A DNA stretch of 64,000 bases from NCBI RefSeq assembly GCF_900142465.1, contig NZ_FRAX01000014.1, positions 1 through 64,000 of the forward strand, in the 5' to 3' direction. Both the position numbers and the translations under genes were made by a program. The notes below the pieces were generated by a model. That model did not search any database and was not told where the DNA came from. It worked only from the letters and a program-made list of their open reading frames with translations. Numbering within the stretch: the stretch's first letter is position 1; every line of letters starts with the position of its first letter. This stretch comes from Fibrobacter sp. UWH6. Its GTDB lineage: Bacteria; Fibrobacterota; Fibrobacteria; Fibrobacterales; Fibrobacteraceae. Positions 38,703-55,484 of the stretch are shown here, one piece after another.

Positions 38703-38725
38703 GAATTGTTTTTCTGGTTACAGAA

Positions 38726-38743
38726 TGTTTACTCGAGTAAACA
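38726..38743 (+). promoter_or_regulatory. Operator-like palindrome before the first TIGR02147 gene
   Basis: TGTTTACTCGAGTAAACA is a perfect 18-bp palindrome 54 bp before ATG 38798. A promoter-like TATCTTTC (38785-38792) lies between it and the start, leaving little or no leader. The site is placed where an activator or autoregulator would bind. Confidence 0.6.
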
Positions 38744-38797
38744 ACAAAAAGAGATTATTTTTTCAATATTGAGGCGCACTCTTCTATCTTTCTAAGT

Positions 38798-39646
38798 ATG
38801 GAAAATGGGAAAGAAAATATCCTCGTAGAACCTGATGTTCTGCAGTACACCAATTACAGGGTGTACCTTAGGGACTATTACGAGTATAAGAAGAAGACCA
38901 CTGCGGCCTTCAGTTTGCGTTTTTTTGCCGAAAAGGCCGGGCTTTCTAGTCATGCTCATCTGAAACTTGCCATCGACGGCAAGCGTAACATCACAAAGAA
39001 CACTGCTACCAAGCTTATCCACGGTCTCGGTCTCGAGAATCAACGTGCCGCATATTTTGAAAGTCTGGTTTTCTTTAACCAGGCGACAACTGACGAAGAC
39101 AAGAAAATCTACTACGCCCAGTTGATCAAGGCAAGCCCTCGCTCCAAGCTGCACAAGATGGACAAGGCTCAGCTTCGAATTTTTAAGGAATGGCATCATT
39201 CCGCAATTCTGGAAATGGTGGGACTCAAGGATTTCCGTCCTATCCCCGACCAGATTTCCAAGCGTCTCCGTGGCTTGATTACCCCGGCGCAGGTGACTGA
39301 ATCCCTGAACTTGCTGTTGGAGTTGGGTCTGCTGGTAAAGACCGCTAACGGTTATAGACAGAGTAATCCGCTGATTACGACCGACGACGAAGTCCAGGAT
39401 GTTGTGGTCAAGATGTACCACAACCAGATGCTTAGCCTTTCAAACAAGATGCTGAACGACCTTCCGGGTGCCGAAAGGGACGTTTCCGCCTTGACTTTTG
39501 GAATTAAGCGCTCTGATTTCGTTAATTTGAAGAAACATTTGCAACTTATGCGAAAAGAACTACTAGATTTCTCTGCAAAAGCCGGAGAAGCTGAAGAGGT
39601 TGTACAAATCAACATTCAGCTGTTCCCGCTGACTCGAGGAGTGTGA
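38798..39646 (+). CDS. TIGR02147 / DUF4423 family protein, copy 1
   Basis: 282 residues. The N-terminal ~75 residues (YTNYRVYLRDYYEYKKK, FFAEKAGLSSHAHLKLAIDG) look like a helix-turn-helix; KNTATKLIHGLGLENQRAAY and FESLVFFNQATTDEDKKIYY follow. The C-terminal half, ending in VQINIQLFPLT, is the TIGR02147/DUF4423 core known mostly from Fibrobacter, where there are many paralogues. Presumably a DNA-binding regulator; no target is proven. A perfect palindrome lies upstream. The last base of its stop (TGATG) is the first of the next gene's ATG, so regulator and lipoprotein are made together. A second such pair is at 52957-55484. Confidence 0.85.
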   Translation: MENGKENILVEPDVLQYTNYRVYLRDYYEYKKKTTAAFSLRFFAEKAGLSSHAHLKLAIDGKRNITKNTATKLIHGLGLENQRAAYFESLVFFNQATTDEDKKIYYAQLIKASPRSKLHKMDKAQLRIFKEWHHSAILEMVGLKDFRPIPDQISKRLRGLITPAQVTESLNLLLELGLLVKTANGYRQSNPLITTDDEVQDVVVKMYHNQMLSLSNKMLNDLPGAERDVSALTFGIKRSDFVNLKKHLQLMRKELLDFSAKAGEAEEVVQINIQLFPLTRGV

Positions 39647-41049
39647 TGCGTTTCTTTTTGTCCATAGCCGCTTTCGCCAGCTTGATGCTAACTGGTTTGT
39701 CGTTGGTCGCCTGTGCCGATGACAAGTCTGTCGCTGGTATAGAAATTGGCAACCCGTCCCTGGATAATCCTATCGCCGATGGGGATACCACGGGACAGGA
39801 TTCTATTCCCGTGATTACTCCGGATGATTCCATTCTTCCGGAACCGGAAGAACCTGTGTCCCTGCCGCTTACCGCTAGCTTTGTTGTGGATTACGATAAG
39901 GGTACTGCCGCCCGTGCGCTTACAAAGGCTTCCTCCAGCGATAGTGCTGTGATTCTGGATACCTTTGCACTGGAACTGACGAATGTCCGTACATACAACA
40001 GCATTTACGTCAGTGTGACGGACACCATATTGACCCGCGGTCTGACGGTCTGGCCCTACGAAGGGTCCGACGTGGAAACCATGCCTATTTCCTTTACGGA
40101 ACAGTCCTTTGTTGAAGAAGATTTCAGCAAGATCGACCTGTTGCCTGAATCGGACTTCTACCTGAAGGAAATTGGTGTTTCCTTCAAGCCCCATAAGGCC
40201 GGCAAGGTTTATGGCCGAGTGCTGCGCGATGGTAAGTATGTTCCCTTTATCTTTAGCCTGTCTCACTTCCAGGCTTTGCAGTTGCGCTATCATTATTCCC
40301 AGATTGAAATCGATTCCGCGAAGAATGTGGCAAACCTGCAGGTGGAGTTCCGCGTCAAGAAGTTCGCTGACGGTCTTGACTTCTCCAAGGCTGATTTGTC
40401 TGACGGCGTTATCCTCATCGACGAAAAGAATAACGCGGCCCTTTGGGATTCTCTGAATAACCGCTTCATTCCTAGCTTCCAGCCGCTGCGCTATAAGTAC
40501 CTGGAAGTTGGCGAAGCTGATACGGCCGGTGTCGAAAATGTGGAACGCATGGACTACGTGAACGACATCTGGAAGAATATCGCTGCAGGTCTTGGCGAGA
40601 ACACCTTGATCAATGGAAACTTCAAGTCTCCCTTTACCACCGATTGGATCTTCAAGACCCAGCTTGGCGGCAAGGCCGACACCGCTATCGTTACCGAAAG
40701 GAGTGGCGACCGTATCATGAAGGTGAACGTGACCAAGGGTGGCAACTACTCCTACAGCGTTCAGCTCATGCAGGAGAATGTGGCTCTCATTGCCGGTGTC
40801 AAGTACAAGTGTATCTTTACCATCTGGTCTGAAGTGGAAGGTGAGATTACGGTTAGAATCGGTTCCTACTCCACTTACGAAGCGGTTGGCTTCTCGGAAC
40901 ACAAGGAAGTGGCACAGACCGGTCAGTCTATCGAGATTGAATTTACTCCCGAAGTGAACGATCCCTTTGCCCGCTTTGAACTGAATCTGGGCAAGACGGA
41001 AAGAGTCCTCCGAATCAAGGAAGCCCAGGTCCTTCGTTTGAGTAAGTAA
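39646..41049 (+). CDS. Large lipoprotein with C-terminal CBM4/9-like domain
   Basis: 467 residues. The signal ends in LSLVACADD (lipidated Cys near residue 22). A Pro/Asp-rich spacer leads to a beta-rich domain (about 75-290) with TFALELTNVRTYNSIYVSVT, which resembles a DUF4382-like fold. The last ~140 residues (LINGNFKSPFTTDW, GGNYSYSVQLMQENV, VKYKCIFTIWSE) match carbohydrate-binding module family 4/9. It is therefore probably an envelope protein that binds sugar chains. It is translated together with the TIGR02147 regulator just upstream; a terminator follows. Confidence 0.75.
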   Translation: MRFFLSIAAFASLMLTGLSLVACADDKSVAGIEIGNPSLDNPIADGDTTGQDSIPVITPDDSILPEPEEPVSLPLTASFVVDYDKGTAARALTKASSSDSAVILDTFALELTNVRTYNSIYVSVTDTILTRGLTVWPYEGSDVETMPISFTEQSFVEEDFSKIDLLPESDFYLKEIGVSFKPHKAGKVYGRVLRDGKYVPFIFSLSHFQALQLRYHYSQIEIDSAKNVANLQVEFRVKKFADGLDFSKADLSDGVILIDEKNNAALWDSLNNRFIPSFQPLRYKYLEVGEADTAGVENVERMDYVNDIWKNIAAGLGENTLINGNFKSPFTTDWIFKTQLGGKADTAIVTERSGDRIMKVNVTKGGNYSYSVQLMQENVALIAGVKYKCIFTIWSEVEGEITVRIGSYSTYEAVGFSEHKEVAQTGQSIEIEFTPEVNDPFARFELNLGKTERVLRIKEAQVLRLSK

Positions 41050-52913: not shown

Positions 52914-52951
52914 ATTTTGTATCATTGGTTTATTGACGAATGATACAAAAT
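52914..52951 (+). promoter_or_regulatory. Operator-like inverted repeat before the second TIGR02147 gene
   Basis: attttgtatcatt (52914-52926) is repeated as aatgatacaaaat (52939-52951) around a 12-nt spacer, perfect 13-bp arms. It ends five bases before ATG 52957, so a bound protein would block or position transcription of the module. TTGACG lies in the spacer. Confidence 0.7.
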
Positions 52952-52956
52952 AAATT

Positions 52957-53805
52957 ATGTTTGCCTTCGCCGTCAAGGCAGGTAAATTTTTGAAGCCCAT
53001 AACCGATTATCAAAGCTATCGCTGCTATATGCAGGAGTTTTATGAGGAGCGTAAGCGAACGGATTCGTTTACGTGGCGAGAATATGCCCGTCTGGCAGGG
53101 TTTTCTTCGCCTACCTACCTGAAGTTGGTTTGCGAGGGTAAAAGTAGCCTTAGCGAGGCGGGAATCGGCAAGGTGGCCGACGCCATGGGGCTGAAGGGTT
53201 TTGATTACGTCTATTTCCGTTACCTGGTGCAGTTTAACCAGGCTAAAGATGACGAGTCCCGCAAGAAGGCGTTCGGTGCCATGCAGGAAGTGGCCAAGTC
53301 AAAAAAGATCCGCGTGCTGGATGGCGACGCCTACGCTTATTTTGAGTCCTGGAAGAATCCGGTGCTGCGTGAATTAGTGACCATGATGCCGGGTGCCACT
53401 CCCGAGGCTATGGCAGCCATGTGCTGGCAGCCGGTAAGTGCCGACGAAGTCTGCGCTTCGCTTGATTTGATGGTAAAGTTGGGTTTGTTACAGAAGAAGG
53501 GCCGTAATGTTTATGTGCAGACGGATAAGGCTCTCGTGGGGAATTCCGATGCGATTCCCGTGGCTGTACGGACGATGCATCGGGAAATGGCTGCGCTTGC
53601 TCAAAAATCTATAGATGCGTTTGATGTGAATGATCGAAATATTATGGGTGTTACAATGAGTGTTGATCGTGAAGCTTACGAACAAATTGTGGAGGAACTG
53701 CTTTCGTGCCGACGAAAAATAGCCTCCATTGCCAATGCCAGCAGAAAGCCGGATCAGGTATATCGTTTGAACTTACAATTGTTTCCTTTGACAAAGAAAA
53801 TCTAG
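52957..53805 (+). CDS. TIGR02147 / DUF4423 family protein, copy 2
   Basis: 282 residues, the same length as copy 1. It shares the pattern YQSYRCYMQEFYEERKRTD, YARLAGFSSPTYLKLVCEG and KVADAMGLKGFDYVYFRYLV at the N-terminus (helix-turn-helix-like) and ends in QVYRLNLQLFPLTKK, the family's closing motif. Sequence identity with copy 1 is low outside these blocks, so the duplication is old. Presumed DNA-binding regulator. It begins right after a 13-bp inverted repeat and is followed after 23 bp by a large lipoprotein gene, repeating the layout at 38.7-41.0 kb. Confidence 0.85.
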   Translation: MFAFAVKAGKFLKPITDYQSYRCYMQEFYEERKRTDSFTWREYARLAGFSSPTYLKLVCEGKSSLSEAGIGKVADAMGLKGFDYVYFRYLVQFNQAKDDESRKKAFGAMQEVAKSKKIRVLDGDAYAYFESWKNPVLRELVTMMPGATPEAMAAMCWQPVSADEVCASLDLMVKLGLLQKKGRNVYVQTDKALVGNSDAIPVAVRTMHREMAALAQKSIDAFDVNDRNIMGVTMSVDREAYEQIVEELLSCRRKIASIANASRKPDQVYRLNLQLFPLTKKI

Positions 53806-53828
53806 AAAGCTGATTTGGGACGGCTAGG

Positions 53829-55484
53829 ATGACTAAAAAAAATATTGCATTCTCTATTGTTTTAACTAACGCGTTTTTACTGGGTGGTTGCGGATCGGAC
53901 CGCCACATGGTTTTTGACGAAGGATCCACCGAAGAAAACAATGCTTCTGTTGAAGTGGTCCACATTGAAGATGTAAACGTGGTGGACGTACCCGGAACAT
54001 GGTCTATGTTGGATGGCGGTGAAGGGTCTGAAATTAAATGGGACGTTGACGGTGATAAAGTCTTTTCAAGGACTTGGCTGAAATCGGCTCAAAAGAAATG
54101 TGGCGGTTTCTGCGGAACGGTTGTTCTTGGAAAGAGCTCGTCTGACAAGGTGGCTTCCGTTGGGTTTAATCTGGATCTTTCCAAGGAACGGAATGATACG
54201 CTGGTTTTGGCGGATGTTTCGTCTTGGGGACAGTTGTGCGTGGAATATGCTTCTGGCCTGGATGTTCGCGTCGACCTGGAATCAATGGATTCGACAGGTG
54301 TTGTCGTTGAGGATTCTCCGACAGCCTTGTATAAAAAGACGTCTGGCGATTCGGTCAAAGTTCGTTGTGTTGGCTGGGAAAAGTTCAAACCGAAAAAGTC
54401 CGGTAAAATTCCGGGTCTTGAAGCGGTGAAACGTCTGGTTTCCCTTTCGTTCTACTTTGAGGGGTCTCCTGGGATGAGTGGCTATTTTAACATCCGGAAG
54501 CTGGGGGCCCTGGTGGTCGGTAGTTTCAAGGAGACTCAAGAAGAAAAAATTGATGACCCTCCAGCAGATTCTCTAGCAGATTCACCAGTGGATGATTCTG
54601 TAAATGTTCTTGTAGATTCTTCTGGTGGAGATACGTTGCTTATTACGTCGGCGGAATCTAGCTCGGGAGAAATAGCGTCTTCGGCGGAGTCCAGCTCCGG
54701 AGAGATTGACTCATCAGCGGAAACTAGTTCGGCGGAATCGACCTCTTCGGCGGAATCAAGTTCGTCAGCGGACACAACCTCGTCAGCGGATTCAACTACG
54801 TCGTCGGAATCTAGTGCGGATACGTTGATCACTCCTGCGAAACGGACGATTGATACAAATGATTTGGTGGAGTTATGGGATGGATCAATAAGTTATGAGG
54901 TAAAAACAGAATTTTGGGAAATGGATGAATACGGAGCTCCCTGGTATGCTTTTGATGATCATGTTTATGAAGGTTCTTCTACGATTACGTGGCCGGTCTC
55001 GTTAGGAGGCGGCTTTGATTCGGGATCTTTAGATGAAGTCATCGAAGAATGTCTGGGTATTTGTGGTACGATTGAATTTGGCGATGTGGCTAAAGGAAAA
55101 CCACCGTTTGTGGGGGTTGTCTTTGACGTGAAGGGATCTTCTGATTTAATTGCGACGGCTAGGCCTGTTGATGTGACTCCCAAATGGGATGGCGTGTGCG
55201 TCGTGTACAAGTCCGACATGAGCGGAGCTATCGTTCTGGACCCGGGATTAGAAAAGGCGGGAACGATGAGCTTCCAATTGCCTGAGGCGGTTTTTGAAAG
55301 CTCTTCTGAAATTGTCCGTAAATGTGCTTTGTGGAGTGATTTTACCAAACCCGATTCAAAAGAACCTTCCGACGAAAACGTGGAAGAATCTTTGGCGTCC
55401 GTTAGAATCAAGTTTGACGGAAGCTCGGGTAGTGGTGGATCTTTCGCAGTCTATCGAGTGGAAGCTGTCAAAGTCACTGAATAA
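53829..55484 (+). CDS. Lipoprotein with two copies of a Cys-containing beta domain
   Basis: 551 residues. Lipobox LLGGCGS. Domain A (about 55-235) and domain B (about 340-550) are divergent copies: CGGFCGTVVLG matches CLGICGTIEFG, QLCVEYAS matches GVCVVYKS, RCVGWEKFKP matches KCALWSDFTKP, and GYFNIRKLGAL matches GSFAVYRVEAV. Four cysteines at equal places suggest two disulfides per domain. A Ser/Ala/Glu linker of repeated SSAES-type units (about 275-335) joins them. The fold looks like a carbohydrate-binding jelly roll, family unnamed. Partner of the TIGR02147 gene upstream. It ends one base before rph, which is transcribed toward it. Confidence 0.75.
   Translation: MTKKNIAFSIVLTNAFLLGGCGSDRHMVFDEGSTEENNASVEVVHIEDVNVVDVPGTWSMLDGGEGSEIKWDVDGDKVFSRTWLKSAQKKCGGFCGTVVLGKSSSDKVASVGFNLDLSKERNDTLVLADVSSWGQLCVEYASGLDVRVDLESMDSTGVVVEDSPTALYKKTSGDSVKVRCVGWEKFKPKKSGKIPGLEAVKRLVSLSFYFEGSPGMSGYFNIRKLGALVVGSFKETQEEKIDDPPADSLADSPVDDSVNVLVDSSGGDTLLITSAESSSGEIASSAESSSGEIDSSAETSSAESTSSAESSSSADTTSSADSTTSSESSADTLITPAKRTIDTNDLVELWDGSISYEVKTEFWEMDEYGAPWYAFDDHVYEGSSTITWPVSLGGGFDSGSLDEVIEECLGICGTIEFGDVAKGKPPFVGVVFDVKGSSDLIATARPVDVTPKWDGVCVVYKSDMSGAIVLDPGLEKAGTMSFQLPEAVFESSSEIVRKCALWSDFTKPDSKEPSDENVEESLASVRIKFDGSSGSGGSFAVYRVEAVKVTE

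Follow-up and report, generated by a model that had tools for sequence, protein, structure and literature searches.

Twice within the stretch of Fibrobacter sp. UWH6 DNA analyzed here (64,000 nucleotides; the window), a gene of the TIGR02147 family is followed directly by a gene for a lipoprotein. This raises the question of whether such a pair is a functional unit and, if so, what the first gene does for the second. Fibrobacter is a rumen fiber-degrading bacterium, a main cellulose degrader there, and these units offer an entry to how it decides on surface display. From sequence comparison, we consider it probable that every such pair works as an autoregulated switch for a single surface lipoprotein, and the units look like self-contained cell-surface switches that recur across the phylum.

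The initial annotation had described a first copy at 38726-41049, consisting of a palindrome, a TIGR02147 gene, and an overlapping gene for a CBM4/9 lipoprotein, and had noted the same gene order at 52914-55484 with a 13-bp inverted repeat and another lipoprotein. All of these elements are present (Table 1). Both regulators score far above the cutoffs of TIGR02147 (Fsuc_second; curated at 50 bits over the whole length) and DUF4423 (PF14394; gathering score of 30), with 332.9 bits (E = 1.5e-99) and 126.1 bits, respectively, for copy 1 and 301.8 bits (E = 4.5e-90) and 96.4 bits for copy 2. The two models cover one protein only, and the lipoprotein partner, its tag, and the operators lie outside the family description that the search tools give; a literature search found no mention of TIGR02147 by name. 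In copy 1, the regulator stop TGA (39644-39646) and the lipoprotein ATG at 39646 have one base in common. However, a GTG lies in frame at 39643 and most orthologues have GTG or ATG at -4, so an overlap of four bases is equally likely. The lipobox of the copy-1 lipoprotein reads LVAC.

Table 1. Coordinates in the window of the features of the two regulator-lipoprotein units.
Feature	Position	Strand	Remarks
Extra half-site GGTTAC, copy 1	38716..38721	+	Upstream of palindrome; array GGTTAC-N5-GTTTAC-N4-GTAAAC
Perfect 18-bp palindrome TGTTTACTCGAGTAAACA, copy 1	38726..38743	.	Putative operator; core GKTTAC-N4-GTAAAC conserved
Probable -10 element TCTATC, copy 1	38783..38788	+	Orthologues conserve CTATYTTT at the same spacing to the start
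TIGR02147/DUF4423 regulator, copy 1	38798..39646	+	282 aa; matches both TIGR02147 and DUF4423
Xre-type helix-turn-helix, copy 1	38909..39034 (approximate)	+	Modeled on copy 2, transferred by alignment
Lipoprotein, copy 1	39643..41049	+	468 aa; start GTG 39643 or ATG 39646
Lipidated Cys and conserved tag CADDKSVAGIEIGNP, copy 1	39712..39756	+	GIEIGNP invariant in 17/17 orthologues
CBM_4_9 carbohydrate-binding domain, copy 1	40600..40992	+	Pfam match
Putative operator, copy 2	52914..52951	.	Inverted 13-bp arms (52914-52926, 52939-52951) flank the -35 box
-35 box TTGACG, copy 2	52933..52938	+	17-bp spacer to -10
Predicted -10 element TATGTT, copy 2	52956..52961	+	Overlaps the ATG (52957) of the initial annotation
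TIGR02147/DUF4423 regulator, copy 2	52990..53805	+	271 aa; probable start TTG, from orthologue starts
Lipoprotein, copy 2	53829..55484	+	551 aa
Lipidated Cys and tag CGSDRHMVFDEGSTEENNA, copy 2	53889..53945	+	Shared tag of partner lipoproteins
Unnamed CBM11-like beta-sandwich domain, first copy, copy-2 lipoprotein	53946..54515	+	
CBM11-like domain, second copy, copy-2 lipoprotein	54855..55475	+	Modeled, pLDDT 89.5

The gene order does recur as described, but the count of two was an understatement, as about 20 such units occur in this genome. Its 3.92 Mb contain 23 TIGR02147 matches, 22 of them full-length. For 20 of these 22, a lipobox-encoding gene comes next, at a distance of -8 to +23 nt (loci oriented; lipobox assigned by pattern). 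The exceptions are C13, which has no partner, and C11b, which precedes an apparent broken remnant. Among 77 named Fibrobacter loci, an exported partner follows TIGR02147 in 75 of the 75 that are assessable; 69 passed an automatic filter, inspection showed six more to be lipoproteins, and the other two loci are truncated at a contig end. In another genus, a closed genome has a partner after 10 of its 12 TIGR02147 genes; the figures are 9 of 9 for a genome elsewhere in the phylum and 24 of 28 assessable genes for five further genomes. Thus, in these seven genomes together, 43 of 49 TIGR02147 genes precede an exported protein, almost always a lipoprotein. As a control, lipoprotein-like products were counted for 77 of 81 open reading frames downstream of TIGR02147 versus 73 of 507 others in the same stretches. 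The counts support treating the regulator and lipoprotein genes as one unit, the basis of a family of about 20 copies in this genome. The TIGR02147 family, one of the large ones of the Fibrobacterota, is present in 141 of 151 genomes sampled over the phylum, with up to 88 first-look candidates in a single genome. Two genera, g22 (family f10) and g18 (family f7), depart from this pattern: none of their sampled genomes has a TIGR02147 gene.

The partners share a second feature, a short tag within about 15 residues after the lipid-bearing cysteine, of the approximate form [VT]AG[GTVI]..E..N[AS] (e.g., GTTEEKNA, AGTDEQPNA, AGIEIGNP, and VAGGTDDHGNA). No stretch of the copy-1 lipoprotein is more constrained: GIEIGNP forms seven consecutive invariant residues in 17 orthologues with a mean identity of 54%. 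When a profile of the N terminus was run against the genome, the best 17 matches were all linked lipoproteins, most of which had helped to build the profile. One row of profile A3 is a shortened composite of a real N terminus. In two genomes outside profile building, the tag-bearing matches were linked to TIGR02147, and the unlinked ones inspected had no tag. A loose pattern separates the classes only moderately (29 of 50 linked versus 3 of 37 unlinked), and the claim for the tag therefore rests on the profile search and inspection. The tag had been considered as a general lipoprotein signal of Fibrobacter, an idea that is ruled out because unlinked lipoproteins lack it; the lipoproteins of these bacteria in general have in common only a CS-D/N-like start. 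On this sequence comparison, the tag appears nearly confined to TIGR02147-linked partners. One lipoprotein of this genome (C3:171358-171444) bears a tag (SVAGNSAETGSPE) and has no TIGR02147 neighbor; the gene before it is ATPase-like. A distant partner, L260, is predicted to be membrane anchored and not lipidated, yet it has the tag VSGGSHTGNAV.

Is there a site through which the regulator could act? The palindrome upstream of copy 1, GKTTAC-N4-GTAAAC, is retained in 28 of 30 orthologous loci, where it stands at -70 to -76 relative to the start; the remaining two have one change, and several of the orthologous promoters show a similar extra half-site. Across 21 nonredundant promoters of the copy-1 type, the information content is 1.88 bits per column in the arms and 0.28 in the flank upstream of them. 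The pattern GKTTACN4GTAAMC occurs once in the 3.92-Mb genome, and 30 of the 31 genomes from this genus contain the palindrome pattern one to six times each. Conservation and uniqueness support a role as a dedicated autoregulatory site. No clear -35 was found in the promoter upstream of 38783..38788. The center of the palindrome would lie about 61 bp upstream of the transcription start, as reckoned from the conserved -10 element CTATYTTT, a position like that of class I activator sites.

The promoter of copy 2 is built differently, and its regulator probably starts at TTG 52990 rather than at ATG 52957, the start assigned initially, because orthologues start at the former and the latter falls in the predicted -10. 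Copy-2 orthologues retain TTTTGTATCAT and ATGATACAAAA at the same positions. Here, the inverted repeat covers the -35 and the spacer, an arrangement that would suit repression at least as well as activation. Together with the close overlap of the genes and an evident duplication history, this is what would be expected if the regulator were a simple autorepressor of a housekeeping lipoprotein, with the pairing and the tag inherited by duplication and the tag acting as a sorting signal only. However, in copy 1 the palindrome is located upstream of the promoter rather than on top of it, the tag is maintained in different classes of the phylum even as the bodies diverge, and the unlinked lipoproteins are without the tag, so it is not a general sorting signal. 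We regard simple autorepression as rather unlikely. Within the switch reading, we lean toward an activator over a repressor, as a preference and not as a result.

The expectation that each paralogue has its own operator holds for copy 1 and does not hold for copy 2, as the half-site TTTTGTATCAT, just upstream of the -35, is common to at least two other paralogues. In this genome, TTTTGTATCAT sites number six, five of them before TIGR02147 genes and the sixth inside an unrelated open reading frame. Other members of the copy-2 clade have the half-site alone, in a constant layout of half-site, 5 to 7 nt, TTGACN, 17 nt, and TATATT. Because TTTTGTATCAT is common to several paralogues, operators would be specific to subfamilies and not always to single paralogues, and the regulators concerned may cross talk. 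Over 77 promoters, TTGTAT is found in 45, versus 6.3 expected and a maximum of 15 in 200 shuffles. The sites also follow the recognition helix: helix YLKLVC goes with TTGTATCAT in 33 loci, YLK[DTM]VC with ATGTAC or ATGTTC, and YMKVVC with TTGTTGCAT or TTGTAGCAT, while TTGTTCTAT sites are found with the common YLKLVC helix as well. This covariation in small clades supports direct binding of regulator to site, although it is confounded by descent and involves few independent lineages.

The idea that an upstream palindrome is a general rule for TIGR02147 genes was rejected: a significant dyad (P ≤ 0.05) precedes 7 of 22, compared to 15 of 90 control promoters. As these controls indicate, AT-rich intergenic DNA often yields imperfect dyads, and the modules might for that reason be put down to chance or to an annotation artifact. 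This explanation has a negligible probability and is refuted by the fact that dozens of genomes conserve the operator, the order, and the tag. Of the 22 TIGR02147 genes, 14 have a -10-like hexamer 10 to 17 nt before the start, compared with 25 of 149 other genes, whose start codons are uncurated. In TIGR02147 promoters of this genome (e.g., L139, L166, and L131), the start codon often follows the end of the -10 box by about 7 nt, and leaderless mRNAs are therefore predicted.

Structure prediction agrees with the description of the first gene as encoding a DNA-binding protein. AlphaFold2 modeling of the copy-2 regulator with 36 relatives gave a mean pLDDT of 76.7, with about 91 in the helix-turn-helix (HTH) region and less confidence in the second half. 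The N-terminal part matches C.BclI, C.AhdI, and SinR in Foldseek at a probability of 0.98 to 1.0, with E above 0.1; the C-terminal half, the region of lower model confidence, matches MarR at a probability of 0.90 to 0.96, with E of 0.04 to 0.07. In a search of PDB sequences, the regulator profile matched Xre-type proteins weakly and the MarR family not at all, and a search of a viral fold library gave nothing useful. TIGR02147 proteins are thus predicted to fuse an N-terminal Xre-type HTH to a MarR-like winged helix (DUF4423). The C proteins of restriction-modification systems, to which C.BclI and C.AhdI belong, have the Xre HTH fold in common with them and act at sites in their own promoters around or upstream of the -35. 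They differ in that TIGR02147 has an extra putative MarR-like domain, a lipoprotein partner, and no restriction system. MarR-family regulators, in turn, would correspond to the predicted C-terminal winged helix (fold probability up to 0.96) and lack the additional N-terminal Xre HTH, and there is no match at the sequence level.

We infer that the first gene encodes a one-component transcription factor that would bind its own operon at the core promoter or directly upstream of this, at the palindrome in copy 1 and at the inverted repeat around the -35 in copy 2. It would sense a signal in the cytoplasm and, probably mainly as an activator, set the expression level of its own gene and of the lipoprotein gene, which follows closely, often overlaps it, and is probably cotranslated with it. 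In the lipoprotein, presumably exposed at the surface, the tag may be a docking or sorting element specific to the partners, attached to a variable and often carbohydrate-binding body. An Xre HTH gene that precedes a gene for a secreted lipoprotein also recalls pheromone-type Xre regulators, which sense a peptide cut from a lipoprotein signal sequence, and there are weak matches to the ComR fold (probability, 0.18 to 0.28). However, such peptide sensing is very improbable here, as modules resemble each other less in the signal peptide (mean similarity, 0.10) than in the region that follows the cysteine (0.17), the predicted C-terminal fold resembles MarR and not TPR, and there is no evidence of an importer.

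The description of the second protein as being of a sugar-binding type is supported for both partners in the window, at the level of profile matches and models. In the copy-1 lipoprotein, CBM_4_9 spans residues 320 to 450 (E = 9.8e-6; Pfam score, 26.4, with a threshold of 25.9) and is matched in 17 of 17 orthologues (best E = 4.6e-12). The copy-2 lipoprotein has no Pfam hit, and its repeated domain has no match in Pfam, NCBIfam, or PDB sequences; the domain was modeled with a pTM of 0.88. Foldseek matches this model to the CBM11 fold (E = 2e-5; probability, 1.0; TM, 0.44 to 0.49) and also to the CBM30, CBM29, and CBM4 folds. Both lipoproteins thus appear to have CBM-type folds, that is, predicted domains of a sugar-binding type. 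A GH5 cellulase and secreted proteins of the same genome, one of them encoded beside a GH18 gene, have the CBM11-like domain as well. The cellulase and a 1,336-aa lipoprotein that has several copies and no Pfam domain map to C2:185500-191000 and C7:117000-123500. Other partners have CarboxypepD_reg, Laminin_G_3, or Fib_succ_major domains. By global similarity, 97% of partner-body pairs appear unrelated; a statement that the bodies are unrelated has been withdrawn, as most clade members have a common repeated domain in local searches.

Carbohydrate-binding bodies also invite comparison with the SigI-RsgI systems of Clostridium thermocellum, which are paralogous two-gene units, cotranscribed from autoregulated promoters (PMC4711584). 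These are the closest functional parallel, with several paralogous units in which the regulator gene precedes one for an envelope protein whose carbohydrate-binding body varies. The likeness is at most one of outline, as two defining features that were tested are absent: the regulator here is a one-component HTH protein with a winged helix and not a sigma factor, and the partner is a lipoprotein, with the lipobox straight after a short signal peptide and without the transmembrane and cytoplasmic anti-sigma parts.

By analogy to RsgI, the lipoprotein could be the sensor, its body detecting a polysaccharide and altering the regulator through the tag and an envelope partner. This would account for the gene order, the carbohydrate-binding body, the multiple paralogues, and promoters that resemble autoregulated ones. 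It would also give meaning to a tag that is nearly specific to TIGR02147-linked lipoproteins, highly constrained in copy 1, and kept without lipidation in the membrane-anchored L260. However, apart from the signal peptide, no part of the lipoproteins is transmembrane or cytoplasmic, which would make a third component necessary, and none was found; moreover, the copy-1 site occurs once in this genome, and signaling would reach its own operon only. On balance, a sensor role for the lipoprotein is doubtful, if a credible minority reading. Its extension to the phylum, in which the tag would let lipoproteins report carbohydrate binding to their own regulators via a shared envelope partner, as sensing without a membrane-spanning transducer, is quite unlikely.

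The link between TIGR02147 and the tagged lipoproteins, with their bodies of a carbohydrate-binding type, gives both families a testable role. The tag, the copy number, the CBM-type fold of both partners, and the copy-2 start are new relative to the initial annotation, and the tag provides a simple sequence handle to find partners in unannotated genomes. A proteome study of F. succinogenes S85 reports that, of 49 putative lipoproteins quantified, 40 were lower on cellulose than on glucose (PMC6851124). The coupling of regulator to exported protein may also be older than the phylum, as a single case in Bdellovibrio suggests. On plasmid pBdHAGR1 (L309:3489-5041), the stop of a DUF4423 gene (25% identity) overlaps the next gene by four bases, and the product of that gene has a signal peptide, no lipobox, and the sequence NAKVIGNGGNEIA after the signal peptide. 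The regulator relative matches DUF4423, plus HTH_3 at 1.1e-4, just below the cutoff.

The units show signs of turnover, such as the apparently broken lipoprotein gene downstream of C11b and a TIGR02147 fragment with internal stops (C21:35302-35553). In some units, a second lipoprotein gene directly follows the first (C11:21954, C18:29653, and L163:3101-4703).
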